Made by a program: the position numbers and the translations under genes. DNA of 64,000 nt from Winogradskyella sp. (GTDB lineage Bacteria; Bacteroidota; Bacteroidia; Flavobacteriales; Flavobacteriaceae), in the NCBI RefSeq assembly GCF_028289625.1, contig NZ_JANQOM010000050.1, positions 1 to 64,000 on the forward strand, read 5' to 3'. Below, piece after piece: positions 39,196 through 43,954 of the stretch (positions are counted from its first letter, which is position 1; each line of letters begins with the position of its first letter). The notes beneath the pieces are model-generated. The model was not told where the DNA came from. It was given only the letters and a program-made list of their open reading frames with translations, and did not search any database.

Positions 39196-39630
39196 CTATC
39201 TTGTATAATTGGAATTTGTAGTTTCCCTATTGCCATCGCCATAATCAAAAACGCGCTCTATCGTTAGCTCCGATTCAGTGAGTATTGTTACTTTTTGGCT
39301 AATTAATTCAACCGGAAAAGTGTCAACAGATAGATTTCCTTCTCCTTCCTCTATTAAAGTTTCTGTTTGCTGATTGAAACTTATGTTATTTCCACTAACA
39401 TTAAATTGTCCAGTATATTGATAGGTATCATTTAAATTTTCTTCACAGGAATTTCCAGATCCAATTCTTATATAGCTGCCATTATTATTGAACGTAATAT
39501 TGTTTTGTGATGGGCACGTATTTGTACTAAACCATTGACCGTAAAGCAAAGACAAATCAATAGAAGGGCCGTCATCTGATGAACACGAAAAGATTAAAAG
39601 CGTAAGGCAGATAATTTTGAAAAATCTCAT
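39196..39630 (-). CDS. Lipocalin-like lipoprotein
   Basis: 144 residues. Signal with lipobox LLIFSC (Cys at about residue 16) and an acidic SSDDG after it. The mature part is beta-rich and begins LLYGQWFSTN, resembling the lipocalin-like start of small Bacteroidota lipoproteins. The ligand is unknown. It is the first gene of the minus-strand run that continues into the CNNM gene. Confidence 0.7.
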   Translation of the reverse strand: MRFFKIICLTLLIFSCSSDDGPSIDLSLLYGQWFSTNTCPSQNNITFNNNGSYIRIGSGNSCEENLNDTYQYTGQFNVSGNNISFNQQTETLIEEGEGNLSVDTFPVELISQKVTILTESELTIERVFDYGDGNRETTNSNYTR

Positions 39631-39721
39631 GTTGAAATATTAAATAAAGATTGCTGTAACTAATATAGTTAAATACGAAGTTACGAAATTACAAACTATA
39701 GATTCTAAATTCTATAAAAAA

Positions 39722-39746
39722 CCCTTAACCTAATTAAGGTTAAGGG
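39722..39746 (-). terminator. Terminator of the TCS-linked exported-protein gene
   Basis: CCCTTAACCT (39722-39731) pairs with AGGTTAAGGG (39737-39746). On the minus strand six T's follow. It lies just beyond the stop at 39795. Confidence 0.85.
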
Positions 39747-39794
39747 CATAGAAAATTAAAACAAGTCTTGTTTTATACCTGACTCTATATTTTT

Positions 39795-40334
39795 TTAGCG
39801 TTTTACTTTCTTTTCATCCTTGCTCTTATGATTTGAAATGTAGGCCTTTAACTCATTACCCAAGGCTTTAATTTTGTCAATGTAGGCTTGTGACACAGCT
39901 TCTGTATCTAAATATATTCTTAAGTGCTTTTTTGTTAGTTTACACTCAAAAATATCATCATCACCTTTATTAATCCATAAGTATGTATTGCCGTTTATTT
40001 TAAGGTTGCTTTTACCTAATTGGTCTAATAAAATGGCTTTTGCACCTTCGTATTTTGACTGGTGATAACGCGCTCTGAACTTATACTTATCATCAGAAAC
40101 TGATATTGATACTGAAATGTTGTGCTTTTCATTGTTATCATTTTCAACTGTAACTGAATAGGATTTACTCGAGGTAGTTTTAGGCGTTGCTGGTGGTTCG
40201 GGTGTTTCAGGTGTGGATTGTGCACTTAAACTTAGAGTAGAGCATAAAGCAATGATTAGTACTAAACAGAATGTTCTTTTTATGGTATTGATTCTAATAC
40301 TGTCTTGTCCGTTTTTTGATTTTTTAAATTTCAT
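39795..40334 (-). CDS. Exported protein of unknown function, probable target of the adjacent two-component system
   Basis: 179 residues from ATG 40334; the open frame extends 54 bp further but across its -7 box. A long basic n-region (~1-20) precedes a hydrophobic core and a LSLSAQ-S cleavage site, then a Pro/Thr-rich linker (TPETPEPPATP) and a folded domain (~70-165). The C-terminus is very basic (KSKDEKKVKR). It has its own promoter with an operator identical to that ahead of the histidine kinase (40406-40426) and its own terminator. I do not recognise the domain; a periplasmic stress-response role is an inference from context. Confidence 0.65.
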   Translation of the reverse strand: MKFKKSKNGQDSIRINTIKRTFCLVLIIALCSTLSLSAQSTPETPEPPATPKTTSSKSYSVTVENDNNEKHNISVSISVSDDKYKFRARYHQSKYEGAKAILLDQLGKSNLKINGNTYLWINKGDDDIFECKLTKKHLRIYLDTEAVSQAYIDKIKALGNELKAYISNHKSKDEKKVKR

Positions 40335-40361
40335 GATATGTGTTTTTATGATTGAACAAGA

Positions 40362-40388
40362 CAAATGTAGCTGACAAATCTGGGGCAA
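40362..40388 (-). promoter_or_regulatory. Regulated promoter A (exported-protein gene)
   Basis: On the minus strand TTG (40388-40386), 16 bp, TACATTTG (40369-40362). The TTG is part of a 14-bp block (40386-40399) that also occurs at promoter B. The -7 box is 27 bp from ATG 40334. Confidence 0.75.
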
Positions 40389-40405
40389 AAAAGAAAATGC
40401 TAGGC

Positions 40406-40426
40406 GTTAACCTAGCATTAACCAAG
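40406..40426 (-). promoter_or_regulatory. Operator A: GGTTAA direct repeats, 11-bp period
   Basis: Minus-strand core GGTTAATGCTAGGTTAAC (40423-40406) is identical in all 18 bases to operator B. Half-sites CTTGGTTAA and CTAGGTTAA repeat every 11 bp, the one-turn spacing used by OmpR-family regulators. It ends 17 bp upstream of the -33 TTG of promoter A and lies 14 bp beyond the response regulator stop. Confidence 0.7.
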
Positions 40427-40439
40427 GAATAAAATTCTA

Positions 40440-41129
40440 TTAACTTACCTTAAATTCTAAACCAATATTTCTAATGCTTTCAATAGAAATAGAAGGGTCT
40501 AGCTTAAAGTATTTGCGGAGTCTGCTTATAAATACATCCATACTTCGACCAGAGAAAAAATCATCACTTTCCCAAACTGCGTTTAGGATGTCTTCCCGTT
40601 TTAACAACTGATTTTTATGTTGGTATAAGAAACGAATAAGTTCTGCTTCTTTTTGAGTCAATTGTTTTTTGTAGTCTCCACAAACGAGTTCGCATCTTAG
40701 CATATTGAAGGTGTATAATCCTATTGTAATGGTCTCTTCCAGTTGAGTTTTATTGCTAGATGTTTTTTCTGTCCTTCTTAAAATGTTATTTAATCGAAGT
40801 ACCAACTCGTCAGCTTCAAAAGGTTTTACTATGTAATCGTCCGCACCAAGCTTTAAGCCCTTAATTTTATCCTCTTTCATTTTTCTGGCGGTTAAAAAAA
40901 TAAATGGAGTTTCTGGCGCAATGTCAATGACTTTTTCTGCCAATGTAAAGCCATCCATCTTTGGCATCATTACATCAAAAACGCAGATGTTAAAACTTCC
41001 TTTTTTAAAAAGTTCTAAGGCTTCTTTTCCATCTTTAGCCCAACTAATGATAAAGCCCGACATTTCTAGATATTGTTTTAGGATATTTCCAAAATCCAAA
41101 TCATCCTCTGCTAGTAAAATGTATTTCAT
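40440..41129 (-). CDS. OmpR-family response regulator
   Basis: 229 residues. The receiver domain (~1-118) has acidic residues D9/D10, the phosphorylation site D52 (VFDVMMPK) and K in IVKPF. The winged-helix DNA-binding domain (~130-225) includes LTQKEAELIRFLYQHKN and the recognition region MDVFISRLRKY. It starts 12 bp after the histidine kinase stop. It is of the kind often compared with Bacteroides RprY. The GGTTAA tandem repeats at 40406 and 42798 are its likely operators. Confidence 0.92.
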   Translation of the reverse strand: MKYILLAEDDLDFGNILKQYLEMSGFIISWAKDGKEALELFKKGSFNICVFDVMMPKMDGFTLAEKVIDIAPETPFIFLTARKMKEDKIKGLKLGADDYIVKPFEADELVLRLNNILRRTEKTSSNKTQLEETITIGLYTFNMLRCELVCGDYKKQLTQKEAELIRFLYQHKNQLLKREDILNAVWESDDFFSGRSMDVFISRLRKYFKLDPSISIESIRNIGLEFKVS

Positions 41130-41141
41130 CTTCTGTGATTT

Positions 41142-42539
41142 TTAATTAAATGGAATACTTAGAATAAATGTAGTGCCTTTACCTTCAGTACTTTCAACAG
41201 CAATGGTGCCGTTATGTGCTTTTATGATTTGATGGGTATAGTATAAGCCTAACCCCAGACCTTTCACATCATGGATTTCCTTATTTCCTGCTCTGAAGAA
41301 TTTTTCAAAGACTTGTTTTTTATCCTTATCCGAAATACCGATACCATTATCCTTTATAGTAATTTTTAGTTCTGAATGACTCTCAATATTACAGTCTATG
41401 ATAATCTTGTCTTCAGAGTATTTTACAGCATTTTCTAAAATGTTTAGAAGTGCTGTCGTAATGTAGAATTTATCGAGATCAATGGTTTTTTGCGCTATTG
41501 AAAATGTCTTGTTTAGATCTATGTTTTTGGACTTAGCAGACAACATAAAATCATCTAAGACAGTACTGATGTACTTTTCGATAGCTACGGTTTCTTTATT
41601 TAACGGAATTTCCTGATAACCTAAGCTATTGTTCAATACTTGGTCTATCAATTTTTGTAGCCTTTTGTTTTGACGCTCTATAGTTTGTACAGTACTGTCA
41701 ACCAGCTGTGGCTGTTGTTGTATTTCTTCTTTTTTTAGCATTTTGGTGGCTAAGGTCAATGTAGCTAAAGGCGTTTTAAGCTCGTGCGTCATATTATTGA
41801 CAAAGTCGGTTTTAATATCGGCAATTTTCTTTTGTGTGATTAGACTTTTTATGGAATAGTAAAGAAGTGCCAGAACCAAAGTAAAAATGAATATTGAAAG
41901 GATTAATACACCAGACATTCTCCTTAAAACTTCTTGCTCCCAGCCATCAATGTTAAAGTAGTCTTGGGTAACAACCTGAAATTCAAAAGTTATGTTTTTC
42001 TGTACTCCATCTTCCATATAATCCCGTTCTATATCTGTAGTCGTTTGCGAATTATTAATGCTATAGGCACTATCGATATCAAAAGTTTCTCCTAAGAGAG
42101 ATAAAGTCTGATTTTTTTTAGACTTGAAAAATAATGTGTCGTTAGCGATAGAGTCTATTAATACGATAGATTTTAAACGTTTTTGAAATTTTACAGGGTG
42201 CGATAATCCTTGTGCTTTAAAAGCATTTTGATATAATTCTACAAAGCGTGGATTAATAGAATCTTGTACGTTGTTAATTCCGTTTAAAAACTCATTTTTT
42301 TGTATTCTTCCCAATTTATAATCGATGATTTGATTTATAACCAGGTCACCGATGGTTTCATAAATGGAATCTATTTCTGCAATATTTTCATCAAAACGGA
42401 AAATAGCGCGTTTGGTTTCTTCAACGAAAGCATCTTTTTCGAGTTTATAAGTATTATTGATGAGATAAGCCTGAATAACAGATAATGCTATTAAGCCAAG
42501 AATAGAACCAACGATTAAGAGATTTATTTTTTTTTTCAT
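41142..42539 (-). CDS. Sensor histidine kinase
   Basis: 465 residues. Transmembrane helices at ~8-27 and ~209-229 flank a ~180-residue periplasmic sensor region without a recognised fold. The HisKA domain has the phosphoacceptor H252 (THELKTPLATL); the ATPase has the N box (NILENAVKY), DNGIGIS and GLGLGLYY. It phosphorylates the response regulator encoded 12 bp downstream. No promoter fits in the 20 bp between its ATG and the hairpin at 42560-42622, so it is probably expressed by read-through from promoter B. Confidence 0.92.
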   Translation of the reverse strand: MKKKINLLIVGSILGLIALSVIQAYLINNTYKLEKDAFVEETKRAIFRFDENIAEIDSIYETIGDLVINQIIDYKLGRIQKNEFLNGINNVQDSINPRFVELYQNAFKAQGLSHPVKFQKRLKSIVLIDSIANDTLFFKSKKNQTLSLLGETFDIDSAYSINNSQTTTDIERDYMEDGVQKNITFEFQVVTQDYFNIDGWEQEVLRRMSGVLILSIFIFTLVLALLYYSIKSLITQKKIADIKTDFVNNMTHELKTPLATLTLATKMLKKEEIQQQPQLVDSTVQTIERQNKRLQKLIDQVLNNSLGYQEIPLNKETVAIEKYISTVLDDFMLSAKSKNIDLNKTFSIAQKTIDLDKFYITTALLNILENAVKYSEDKIIIDCNIESHSELKITIKDNGIGISDKDKKQVFEKFFRAGNKEIHDVKGLGLGLYYTHQIIKAHNGTIAVESTEGKGTTFILSIPFN

Positions 42540-42559
42540 TTAGAGTCTAAATTATAAAT

Positions 42560-42622
42560 AAAACAGAGTTTACAGTTTTTTTGATTGATTGCTTTGATTG
42601 ATGATACTGTAAACTCTGTTTT
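42560..42622 (-). terminator. 17-bp perfect hairpin (partial terminator or attenuator) ahead of the histidine kinase
   Basis: AAAACAGAGTTTACAGT (42560-42576) and ACTGTAAACTCTGTTTT (42606-42622) are exact reverse complements with a 29-base loop. On the minus strand four T's follow, then A, a weak T-run. It separates the 28-codon ORF from the kinase start at 42539. Confidence 0.75.
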
Positions 42623-42636
42623 TAACTTTGAAATCT

Positions 42637-42723
42637 TTATCTAAAACGTCTTTTGGTATTCCAGTTATACGCTTTAGTTCTTTGATCTCTTTCTGTGATT
42701 TGGTTGTTGTTTAAAGTTCTCAT
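42637..42723 (-). CDS. Candidate 28-residue leader peptide of the two-component operon
   Basis: ATG at 42723 to TAA at 42637. The peptide starts MRTLNNNQITERDQ and ends KRRFR, with eight Lys/Arg and no hydrophobic segment. Promoter B starts transcription about 24 nt upstream and the 17-bp hairpin follows 14 nt after the stop, so promoter, ORF and hairpin form a compact unit. It may be a small regulatory protein, a leader ORF controlling read-through, or part of a non-coding RNA. No homologue is known to me. Confidence 0.45.
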   Translation of the reverse strand: MRTLNNNQITERDQRTKAYNWNTKRRFR

Positions 42724-42753
42724 AATTAAATGAATTTTTGATTGATGATGGTA

Positions 42754-42780
42754 CAAATCTAATGTGAAGGTTTTTCACAA
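42754..42780 (-). promoter_or_regulatory. Regulated promoter B (28-codon ORF and, by read-through, kinase/regulator)
   Basis: On the minus strand TTG (42780-42778), 16 bp, TAGATTTG (42761-42754). The 14-bp block 42778-42791 (plus strand CAAAAAAGAAAATG) is identical to that at promoter A. Confidence 0.75.
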
Positions 42781-42797
42781 AAAAGAAAATGAGTAAG

Positions 42798-42818
42798 GTT
42801 AACCTAGCATTAACCTAG
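42798..42818 (-). promoter_or_regulatory. Operator B: GGTTAA direct repeats, 11-bp period
   Basis: The minus strand reads CTAGGTTAATG then CTAGGTTAACC: the nine bases CTAGGTTAA repeated at an 11-bp step. The 18-bp core (42815-42798) is identical to operator A, and its distance of 17 bp to the TTG is the same. The rest of the gap to hemB (42819-42964) shows nothing I can assign. Confidence 0.7.
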
Positions 42819-42964
42819 AGAGATATTGTATTAACTTAAGATAATCCTTCTGAATTAAATGATCAACTCACTTAATCAAAAGACTCAATGAGTAACCTCA
42901 CTCGCTTATGTTTGTGGAAGGTAATAGTAAGGTCTTGGTTAATTATTGAGAGTAATGAATTCTA

Positions 42965-43954
42965 TTATGATATTAATTTAACTACATCCTTAGCAAAATA
43001 ACTCGCTATGATATCAGCACCAGCACGTTTAATAGAGGTAATTTGTTCTAGCATCACCGAGTCGTGATCTAACCAACCTTTTTCAGCGGCAGCCTTGAGC
43101 ATGGCATACTCACCAGAGACTTGATAGACAGCAATTGGAATTTCAAAACTGTTTCTTATATCGCGTACAATATCCAAATAACTCAAGCCTGGTTTTACCA
43201 TAACAATATCTGCGCCTTCATTGATATCCATTTCAGTTTCCCGTATGGCTTCATCCCTATTAGCAAAATCCATTTGATAGGTTTTTTTGTCTTTTGGCAC
43301 ATTAATCATATCTACAGGCGCAGAGTCTAACGCATCTCGAAATGGCCCATAAAAAGCAGATGCATATTTGGCGGAGTAGCTCATAATCCCAACATCCAAA
43401 AAATTAGATTGGTCTAAGCCTTCTCTAATGCCAAGAATTCTCCCATCCATCATATCACTAGGAGCAACAAAATCGACACCAGCTTCGGCATGGGAAATAC
43501 TCATTTCTGCTAACACTTCTACCGTGGCATCATTGATGATTTTTCCGTTCTCAATAATCCCATCGTGTCCATATGACGAAAAAGGGTCAAGAGCCACATC
43601 AGTCATCACCAACATGTCCGGACAAATGTCTTTAACGGTTTTTATGGCACGTTGCATTAGACCGTTAGGGTTTAAAGCTTCATTACCTTTATTATCTTTT
43701 AAAGCATCATCAACCTTTACGAAAAGCAACACCGATTTTAAACCAAGATTCCAAAGTGTTTTCACTTCGTCCCTAAGTAAATCCAGACTGTAGCGATAAT
43801 AGTTGGGCATAGATGCAATTTCTTCTTTTATGCCTTTGCCTTCAACTATAAACAGTGGGACCAAAAAGTCATTAGGTGTAATAATCGTTTCTCTTACCAG
43901 ACCTCTAATCGCTGCATTGGTTCTAAGCCTTCTATTTCTTCTAATTGGGAACAT
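42965..43954 (-). CDS. hemB: Delta-aminolevulinic acid dehydratase (porphobilinogen synthase)
   Basis: 329 residues. Schiff-base lysines are K196 (SYSAKYASAFYGPFRDA) and K254 (MVKPGLSYLDIV). The metal-binding loop reads DVALDPFSSYGHDG (D119, D123, D131), so the active-site Zn cysteines of animal enzymes are absent and the enzyme is probably Mg-dependent. It condenses two 5-aminolevulinate molecules to porphobilinogen, the second common step of heme synthesis. It lies apart from the other hem genes, alone on the minus strand, divergent from the helicase. Confidence 0.95.
   Translation of the reverse strand: MFPIRRNRRLRTNAAIRGLVRETIITPNDFLVPLFIVEGKGIKEEIASMPNYYRYSLDLLRDEVKTLWNLGLKSVLLFVKVDDALKDNKGNEALNPNGLMQRAIKTVKDICPDMLVMTDVALDPFSSYGHDGIIENGKIINDATVEVLAEMSISHAEAGVDFVAPSDMMDGRILGIREGLDQSNFLDVGIMSYSAKYASAFYGPFRDALDSAPVDMINVPKDKKTYQMDFANRDEAIRETEMDINEGADIVMVKPGLSYLDIVRDIRNSFEIPIAVYQVSGEYAMLKAAAEKGWLDHDSVMLEQITSIKRAGADIIASYFAKDVVKLIS

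Follow-up and report, generated by a model that had tools for sequence, protein, structure and literature searches.

In two-component systems such as PhoBR and CpxAR, a regulator with a receiver and a winged-helix domain recognises an operator of direct repeats with an 11-bp period, and the system's own operon is an apparent target. Direct repeats resembling GTTAA are compatible with many OmpR-type regulators. A system apparently of the same kind is encoded on a 64,000-nucleotide stretch of Winogradskyella sp. DNA (contig NZ_JANQOM010000050.1, positions 1 to 64,000; hereafter the window). In contrast to PhoBR and CpxAR, its promoters combine a flavobacterial -7 box with no fixed -33 box and a rigid 37-bp spacing from the operator; furthermore, one operator doubles as a terminator arm and the operon begins with a gene for a 28-residue protein.

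Two other described systems offer points of comparison. For the regulator, the best named NCBIfam model among those listed is RprY, of the Bacteroides RprXY system, yet its 226.5 bits fall far short of the 370 bits set as the curated cut-off for this equivalog (NF051850). Periplasmic accessory proteins of the CpxP type are small and controlled by the system that they accompany, and the locus described here likewise has an apparently exported partner. Unlike the CpxP type, this partner matches no Pfam family at cut-off, has a core predicted to be mixed alpha-beta and occurs in a longer form in other lineages. Full-text searches of the literature, mostly open-access, with four peptide strings gave no match, and searches for autoregulated OmpR systems in Flavobacteriaceae, flavobacterial microproteins, and terminator, operator and leader arrangements showed nothing on the present system among the papers listed. 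The elements of the locus, in their order along the minus strand, are as follows.

42798 to 42815, minus strand: operator site B, GGTTAATGCTAGGTTAAC, with two direct GTTAA half-sites at an 11-bp period
42754 to 42761, minus strand: -7 box of promoter B, TAGATTTG, 37 bp past the operator; start predicted at about 42749
42637 to 42723, minus strand: 28-codon open reading frame, MRTLNNNQITERDQRTKAYNWNTKRRFR, the first gene behind promoter B
42560 to 42622, minus strand: terminator-like hairpin between the 28-codon frame and the kinase gene (17-bp stem, 29-nt loop, TTTTAT tail)
41142 to 42539, minus strand: sensor histidine kinase, 465 aa, HisKA and HATPase_c
40440 to 41129, minus strand: OmpR/PhoB-family response regulator, 229 aa, Response_reg and Trans_reg_C
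40406 to 40423, minus strand: operator site A, the same 18-mer GGTTAATGCTAGGTTAAC, its second half-site falling within the terminator's 5' arm and loop
40386 to 40419, minus strand: intrinsic-terminator-like element of the regulator gene, a 10-pair stem (40396-40419) plus TTCTTTTTTG
40362 to 40369, minus strand: -7 box of promoter A, TACATTTG, 37 bp past the operator; start predicted at about 40357
39795 to 40334, minus strand: apparently exported partner, 179 aa, the gene behind site A and putative second target

The regulator carries both domains expected of the OmpR/PhoB family, each above its cut-off (PF00072, 99 bits; PF00486, 56.8 bits), and the stretch GRSMDVFIS(R/K)(L/I)RKYF in its recognition-helix region is nearly invariant among the 48 loci read. 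The kinase has a sensor of about 180 residues between two hydrophobic stretches, as judged by eye, and none of its best 25 NCBIfam models reaches the cut-off. Close relatives of this kinase occur in 9 of 36 other genomes of the genus and at 50 named loci; several distant kinases were found in most genomes. The partner has a hydrophobic N-terminus (also judged by eye), which agrees with an earlier sequence-only reading that had predicted an exported protein as the second target, and it appears to be a conserved companion of the system: a profile built here finds a homologue at 49 of 50 fetched loci. This profile left out L133, where the frame is broken, and L134, L137 and L151, where a different gene lies directly behind the regulator; a later alignment included the partner of L134 and excluded L144, which is near-identical to L143. 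The partner has no match in Pfam or NCBIfam at E 0.001, and at cut-off there is none in Pfam for the partner and four relatives or in NCBIfam for the partner and three relatives. The long form comes near DKNYY, with 24.1 bits against the 25 needed. A search of solved structures gave nothing convincing for the partner, the weak matches being mostly helical or coiled-coil chains.

The 18-mers at sites A and B lie in 41-bp copies (40386-40426 and 42778-42818) that are 83% identical and have a T-tract in common. As the sequence-only reading had described, blocks of 14 and 18 bp are identical, all six bases between them differ, and the half-sites at both sites repeat every 11 bp. With up to three mismatches, A and B are the sole matches to GGTTAATGCTAGGTTAAC in the window (0.01 expected), and none of 100 shuffled windows contains two. 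A scan of the whole assembly with the looser pattern GGTTAANNNTAGGTTAA, a scan of the kind that the same reading had called for, gave perfect matches at A and B only, and two more with one mismatch; at up to two mismatches there are 65 matches in total, compared with 86 for the reversed control. A larger regulon in this genome was considered and rejected, as the scan at one mismatch adds just these two sites and neither has a correctly placed -7 box (by eye).

Sigma-A promoters with a TAnnTTTG box are described in the Flavobacterium psychrophilum transcription map (PMC9723704), and both promoters of the locus have such a box. With the box placed at -12 to -5, following that source, starts are predicted at 40357 and 42749 rather than at 40355 and 42747 as proposed earlier. 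The string TTG-N16-TAnnTTTG is indeed present at both promoters in the window. Across the loci compared, however, just 2 among 31 A sites have a TTG at N16, as do just 4 among 37 B sites, so the -33 TTG does not hold as a conserved element.

Are the two operators maintained beyond this genome? Fifty-one loci encoding the kinase, the window included, were compared, and an upstream operator was sought within 700 bp; because near-duplicates such as L143 and L144 are included, these loci are not independent. An exact GTTAA-N6-GTTAA precedes the kinase at 48 of the 51 and is absent from three, while an exact operator follows the regulator at 33 of 49 testable loci and is absent from 16. At L131, one of the three, a composite site and the 28-codon frame lie about 1.7 kb upstream, separated from the kinase by a 511-residue reading frame. 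Upstream, operator and TAnnTTTG box stand 37 bp apart in 38 of 44 pairs and 36 or 38 bp apart in the other six; downstream, the gap is 37 bp in all 31 proper pairs, and one extra pair with a gap of 48 belongs to an additional half-site. By record name, operators accompany the orthologous genes in Winogradskyella, Psychroserpens, Polaribacter, Lacinutrix, Cellulophaga, Dokdonia, Hyunsoonleella, Aquimarina and others. The sequence-only reading had staked its proposal on operators being found beside orthologous kinase and regulator genes, and they are there, with rigid geometry, in many genera. This comparison supports the autoregulated two-component system with a second target that was predicted, and it is probable that an OmpR-family system here activates both itself and a conserved exported partner.

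How would such a system work? The phosphorylated regulator would bind the pair of direct GTTAA half-sites, the centre of which lies about 57.5 bp before the start, and would activate rather than repress, by recruiting sigma-A polymerase to a promoter with a good -7 box and no fixed -33 box. Promoter B would give a short message for the 28-residue protein, mostly ending at the terminator-like hairpin, and smaller amounts of kinase and regulator would come from read-through past the hairpin. Promoter A, which forms part of the regulator gene's own terminator, would drive the apparently exported partner; this protein probably reports back to the sensor or works alongside it in the envelope.

The 28-codon frame and the hairpin behind promoter B, like the terminator at site A, are features beyond those described in the sequence-only reading. 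The frame lies immediately before the kinase at 19 of the 51 loci and farther upstream at three more (L131, L164 and L172). It is under coding selection, as judged from a synonymous fraction of 0.59 compared with 0.23 expected without selection. The hairpin is stable (MFE -20.9, z -8.4) and covaries: in an alignment of 13 of the 19 frame-bearing loci, 8 of 17 pairs have changes on both sides and 92.6% of alignment cells are paired, compared with 26 to 50% in slid controls. At the six loci left out of this alignment, mostly Psychroserpens, its place is taken by a hairpin that is unrelated in sequence. A search for known RNA families across 39500-43200 gave two matches, neither of which comes near the gathering score.

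Members of the 28-residue family occur in 126 of the 397 genomes sampled from the bacterial family, and some of them form paralogous arrays. Of 52 array loci, L068 has no clean reading frame and was not counted; among the remaining 51, the gene is in tandem (two or three copies) in 20. An ECF-type promoter, whose consensus we take to be a GTAAC-type -35 and a CGTC-type -10 set 16 bp apart, lies upstream of 48 of the 51, in all 48 at N16, compared with 3 of 1020 shuffled upstream regions. GTTAA repeats are also present upstream of 43 of the 51 arrays, 35 of the 43 with a period of 10 bp instead of 11 bp. For two members, neither Pfam nor NCBIfam gives a match at E up to 1; there are no phage relatives at E up to 10, and nothing convincing among solved structures.

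One explanation of the 28-codon frame is that it encodes a leader peptide, whose translation controls the pre-kinase hairpin by attenuation and which has no action elsewhere. The frame does precede both a terminator-like hairpin and the kinase, and its stop codon in the window lies just about 14 nt from the stem; given so short a gap, a ribosome ending at the stop codon could touch the stem. Nevertheless, the family occurs elsewhere behind ECF-type promoters and often in several copies, no sensor kinase stood out behind the arrays listed, and the protein is conserved to both ends across genera, all of which makes a pure leader doubtful. The alternative that we put forward, tentatively, is that these basic proteins (MRTLNxNQ...WNxKRRxR) may be an envelope-stress effector made in bulk: driven by ECF promoters at ancestral, often tandem loci, captured at the head of the two-component operon, and followed there by a terminator-like hairpin that would set the kinase output per microprotein message. 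The protein may work in trans, with a target as general as the ribosome, RNA or the inner membrane.

The 10-bp repeats before the arrays imply that more than one regulator may read similar half-sites, and most genomes encode several distant kinases. It could thus be that a different OmpR-type regulator binds A and B, the present system being merely one of its targets. In a scan of 20 Winogradskyella genomes, however, the composite site largely tracks the presence of the close kinase and adjoins it: the site occurs in nine of ten genomes with the kinase, whereas a regulator independent of this kinase should have sites in kinase-less genomes and these were seen in two of ten (G006 and G009, one composite each). 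The composite also accompanies the partner in W. immobilis, where an extra gene precedes the partner and the partner has a composite of its own. A separate regulator is therefore unlikely. In the same scan, G022 has a kinase that is 40% identical and lacks the composite, and the A box of G024 reads TACATTCG, which leaves site B as the only composite beside the system there. A third composite precedes an M13-family peptidase gene (a Pfam assignment, made on L198) in 3 of the 20 genomes (G007, G020 and G024) and is absent from the window's genome. Across the bacterial family, the composite was found in 39 of 299 genomes, with 53 matches compared with 5 in the reversed control. Many of these matches have a different spacer sequence, and a group with an ACAGAC..GTCTGT dyad looks like the site of another regulator.

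At site A, the operator overlaps a hairpin (MFE -15.1, z -4.75) that has the GC-bearing stem and following T run of an intrinsic terminator. The first arm of this hairpin is operator DNA. The six bases that differ between A and B, which the sequence-only reading had taken to be fully variable, do all differ; they are not unconstrained, as at A they pair with the operator arm and complete the terminator stem. Site A might therefore be the terminator of the regulator gene and nothing more, with the partner expressed by read-through and the operator match a by-product. A strong hairpin with a T-tract is present at 13 of 31 A sites. In addition, lineages without site A have the partner close behind the regulator (15 of these 16 loci have a longer form of it near the end of the regulator, while L176 has two short ones), and the pattern used found no separate partner site in them. 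Against this, the other 18 of the 31 A sites lack a terminator-like hairpin and still keep the operator and the exact 37-bp spacing. A terminator-only role is thus very improbable, and dual use as terminator and operator fits better.

It can hardly be credited that the A/B repeat is a dispersed repeat or the product of recent duplication or gene conversion instead of a pair of selected operators, and recent duplication of the site was rejected: the 83% identity, the common T-tract and a slight excess of similarity within genomes over the first 20 bp past the operator (P 0.03) favour it, but the assembly has only two perfect copies, positions and spacing are constant in many genera, and, in line with the sequence-only reading, such an event is not needed, because the 6-bp spacers of A and B are no closer within than between genomes (distance 0.246 compared with 0.248 permuted, P 0.51; identical in only 4 of 23 genomes).

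The dual-use reading of site A suggests that a single stretch of DNA can both terminate one gene and hold the site through which the next is activated. More broadly, the locus offers a testable regulatory code, GTTAA-N6-GTTAA with a sigma-A -7 box exactly 37 bp after it, in a group with few known regulons, and this code would belong to an as yet unnamed two-component system of many flavobacteria. It also brings to light a conserved microprotein family, with no match in Pfam or NCBIfam, that is linked to two independent and apparently stress-type control systems.

The two operators proposed by the sequence-only reading have exactly the positions and block structure claimed for them. On the minus strand the gene order is hemB (the porphobilinogen synthase gene), site B, a 28-codon ORF, a hairpin, the kinase, the regulator, site A and the partner gene:

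42798-42815, minus strand: GGTTAATGCTAGGTTAAC, operator of site B
42637-42723, minus strand: 28-codon ORF MRTLNNNQITERDQRTKAYNWNTKRRFR, between promoter B and the kinase
41142-42539, minus strand: sensor histidine kinase
40440-41129, minus strand: response regulator
40406-40423, minus strand: GGTTAATGCTAGGTTAAC, operator of site A
39795-40334, minus strand: partner, a 179-residue protein

A search of the 64 kb at up to three mismatches found no third copy of GGTTAATGCTAGGTTAAC, with 0.01 matches expected, and in the whole assembly the perfect matches to GGTTAANNNTAGGTTAA are sites A and B only. The 41 bp around the two sites are 83% identical and include a run of six differing bases. Domain profiles identify HisKA and HATPase_c in the kinase and place the regulator in the OmpR/PhoB type. 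The closest named model for the regulator is RprY, yet its score of 226.5 bits falls under the cut-off of 370, so the regulator is not RprY. Of the 50 fetched loci, 48 were read for the recognition-helix region, which is nearly invariant among them; the other two have a truncated or interrupted kinase frame.

Are the operators found beside the same genes in other genomes? A search of 60 genomes, the window's own among them, found close relatives of the kinase in nine of the 36 other genomes of the genus (40 to 61% identity, nearly full length). A sensor-half scan of named genomes gave 50 kinase loci, many of them from Winogradskyella, Psychroserpens, Polaribacter, Lacinutrix, Cellulophaga and Dokdonia. 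With the window these make 51 loci; several come from genomes already in the 60-genome search, and some nearly duplicate one another. In 48 of the 51, the 700 bp upstream of the kinase contain an exact GTTAA-N6-GTTAA, and in 33 of 49 testable loci there is one 600 to 1400 bp behind the kinase end. Operators do accompany orthologous kinase and regulator genes, and the original finding is substantively correct, with more support than its reader could know of.

Three loci have no operator close upstream. L131, from a Flavobacteriaceae MAG, has a composite site (the operator with a TAnnTTTG box at fixed spacing) and a 28-codon ORF about 1.7 kb upstream of the kinase; this ORF, predicted to be operator-controlled, and the kinase are parted, about 1.5 kb upstream of the kinase, by a 511-residue reading frame, so extra genes can enter the operon. 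L148 has one site 1.1 kb upstream, and L150 has no upstream operator within the stretch covered. Separately, a triple GGTTAA array in 11-bp steps lies some 100 bp upstream of the operator that follows in L133, L136, L142, L158, L159, L162, L164, L167 and L168, loci mostly without a 28-codon ORF directly before the kinase; it perhaps controls a divergent gene.

Promoter geometry was examined by searching for a TAnnTTTG box whose start lies 20 to 52 bp beyond each operator site. Upstream of the kinase the only spacings are 36 bp (3 pairs), 37 bp (38 pairs) and 38 bp (3 pairs), in 43 loci. Downstream it is 37 bp in 31 pairs, plus one at 48 bp that reflects an extra third half-site in L160. The shared -33 TTG, proposed as a promoter element, is in both window copies but not conserved: counting those of the window, 2 of 31 A sites and 4 of 37 B sites have TTG at N16. 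The -33 region is instead commonly a T-rich tract, above all at A sites. A good -7 box, no fixed -33 box and a fixed upstream site would, judged from sequence, have the look of an activator-dependent promoter. In F. psychrophilum the box is mapped at -12 to -5 (PMC9723704), which would put the operator centre at about -57.5.

Have the two sites arisen by recent simple duplication, as the sequence-only reading argued they had not? For the 23 genomes that carry A and B each with a 37-bp gap, the A-B spacer distance was 0.246 within genomes versus 0.248 when permuted (P 0.51), and spacers were identical in 4 of the 23. Spacers are no closer within genomes, which argues that the two sites have been kept largely independently. 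Over the first 20 bp past the operator, the within-genome distance is slightly lower (0.465 versus 0.496, P 0.03).

The six bases between the identical blocks do all differ, but they do not vary freely, since at site A they pair with the operator arm. There they close a stem of 10 pairs, with operator sequence as its first arm and TTCTTTTTTG after it. Under the criteria applied, a terminator-like structure is present at 13 of 31 A sites (by record name, seven from Winogradskyella, window included, and four from Psychroserpens) and at 4 of 44 B entries, where the stems are weaker. Stem arms in L139, L153, L157 and L160 are unlike the common form, and pairing is kept via G-U pairs. Given an operator arm that is also a stem arm, the same bases at site A seem to serve as both operator and terminator in this clade. 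A terminator-like hairpin with AGGTTAA/TTAACCT arms also lies behind the partner gene (39721-39747, minus strand).

How specific is the composite? Twenty Winogradskyella genomes, ten with a close kinase and ten picked without, were scanned at spacings of 35 to 39 bp. Eleven genomes had it, nine from the kinase group and two from the other (G006 and G009, one site each, spacers unrelated); the reversed control gave two matches over the same genomes. Eight of the nine kinase genomes with a composite have two beside the system. The ninth, G024, has one, since TACATTCG stands in place of its A box. No composite at these spacings was found in G022, whose kinase relative is the 40% one. G007, G020 and G024 share an extra composite before an M13-family peptidase gene, and G012 has one extra unrelated site. 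The exact 37-bp composite occurs in 39 of 299 family genomes (53 matches versus 5 in the reversed control), and part of the 39 plainly belong to other systems. In several genera GTTAA-N6-GTTAA recurs beside an ACAGAC..GTCTGT dyad and TAnnTTTG (e.g., G184:C1:1807676), probably another regulator's promoter.

A profile made from genes that follow site A detected a partner homologue in 49 of the 50 fetched loci. The exception is L152, where a contig edge cuts the locus off near the kinase. In 15 of 16 loci without site A, a longer form starts close behind the regulator (416 to 444 residues in the four read), and L176, also without site A, has two short copies. In W. immobilis, where an extra gene intervenes, the partner carries a composite of its own. 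At cut-off, neither Pfam nor NCBIfam gives a family for the partner; one long form scores 24.1 bits for DKNYY versus a cut-off of 25. Most relatives carry a charged, coiled-coil-like C-terminal part, which the window copy lacks. By eye the N-terminus resembles a signal peptide, in keeping with the prediction that the second target encodes an exported protein. Structure prediction is confident over residues about 70 to 167, and comparison with solved structures gave no clear relative.

The 28-codon ORF lies directly before the kinase in 19 of the 51 loci; in three more (L131, L164 and L172) it stands behind an operator at a greater distance upstream. Pairwise comparison across the 19 gives a synonymous share of 59% for single-base codon differences versus 23% expected without selection, the pairs not being independent. 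About 14 nt past the ORF's stop in the window is the hairpin. Across 13 aligned loci, pairing holds for 92.6% of stem cells (26 to 50% in slid controls), and 8 of 17 pairs have changes on both sides. Six other loci with the ORF, from Psychroserpens, a Lacinutrix and one other genome, have unrelated sequence forming a hairpin with a T-rich tail in the same place. Such retention of structure across a change of sequence would be expected of a terminator or RNA-end stabiliser. In L152 (Winogradskyella MAG DT_119) the ORF and 5' stem arm are absent and the 3' arm is kept just before the kinase, which by eye looks like a deletion.

The microprotein family is the most unusual part of the system and was absent from the sequence-only reading. 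In a set of 60 genomes that includes the window's own, 31 carry related 28-residue ORFs, every one of them from the genus; in the family the count is 126 of 397 genomes (85 of 237 genera). Contig C71 of the window's own genome carries three in a row. Of 51 arrays drawn from the best matches listed in the 60-genome and 397-genome searches, 17 have two copies and 3 have three. An ECF-type GTAAC-like-N16-CGTC motif lies upstream of the first copy in 48 of 51, always at N16 (3 of 1020 shuffled), and a GTTAA repeat in 43. Three of the 51 match a loosened two-component composite, all running across the ECF -35 region. Two family members had no match in Pfam or NCBIfam, and four peptide strings were not found in the full-text papers searched. 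Its strict ends, basic charge, repeated copies and absence of any hydrophobic segment point to a soluble product that may be required in large amounts; a leader-peptide role at the kinase operon is less probable.

Other elements accompany these arrays. A second tiny ORF, MRALSKIVNTSNSLDDDLETIK-like, acidic and also starting MR/MK-A-L, follows single or tandem 28-codon ORFs in many loci (G000:C71, L091, 2091-2425; similar in L069-L090). The L091 array is near an ExbD-family gene and, by eye, a helicase-like gene. A near-palindrome like TACTATGTTATGCATAGTACTGTAACA recurs, by eye, just upstream of or overlapping the -35 in many arrays (L099-L127), suggesting a further regulator.

The system is best read as a putative autoregulated activator system with two promoters. 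One would drive the exported partner and the other a microprotein-kinase-regulator message, in which the hairpin would lower the kinase share. CpxP damps or tunes CpxA; by analogy, the partner may damp or tune the sensor.
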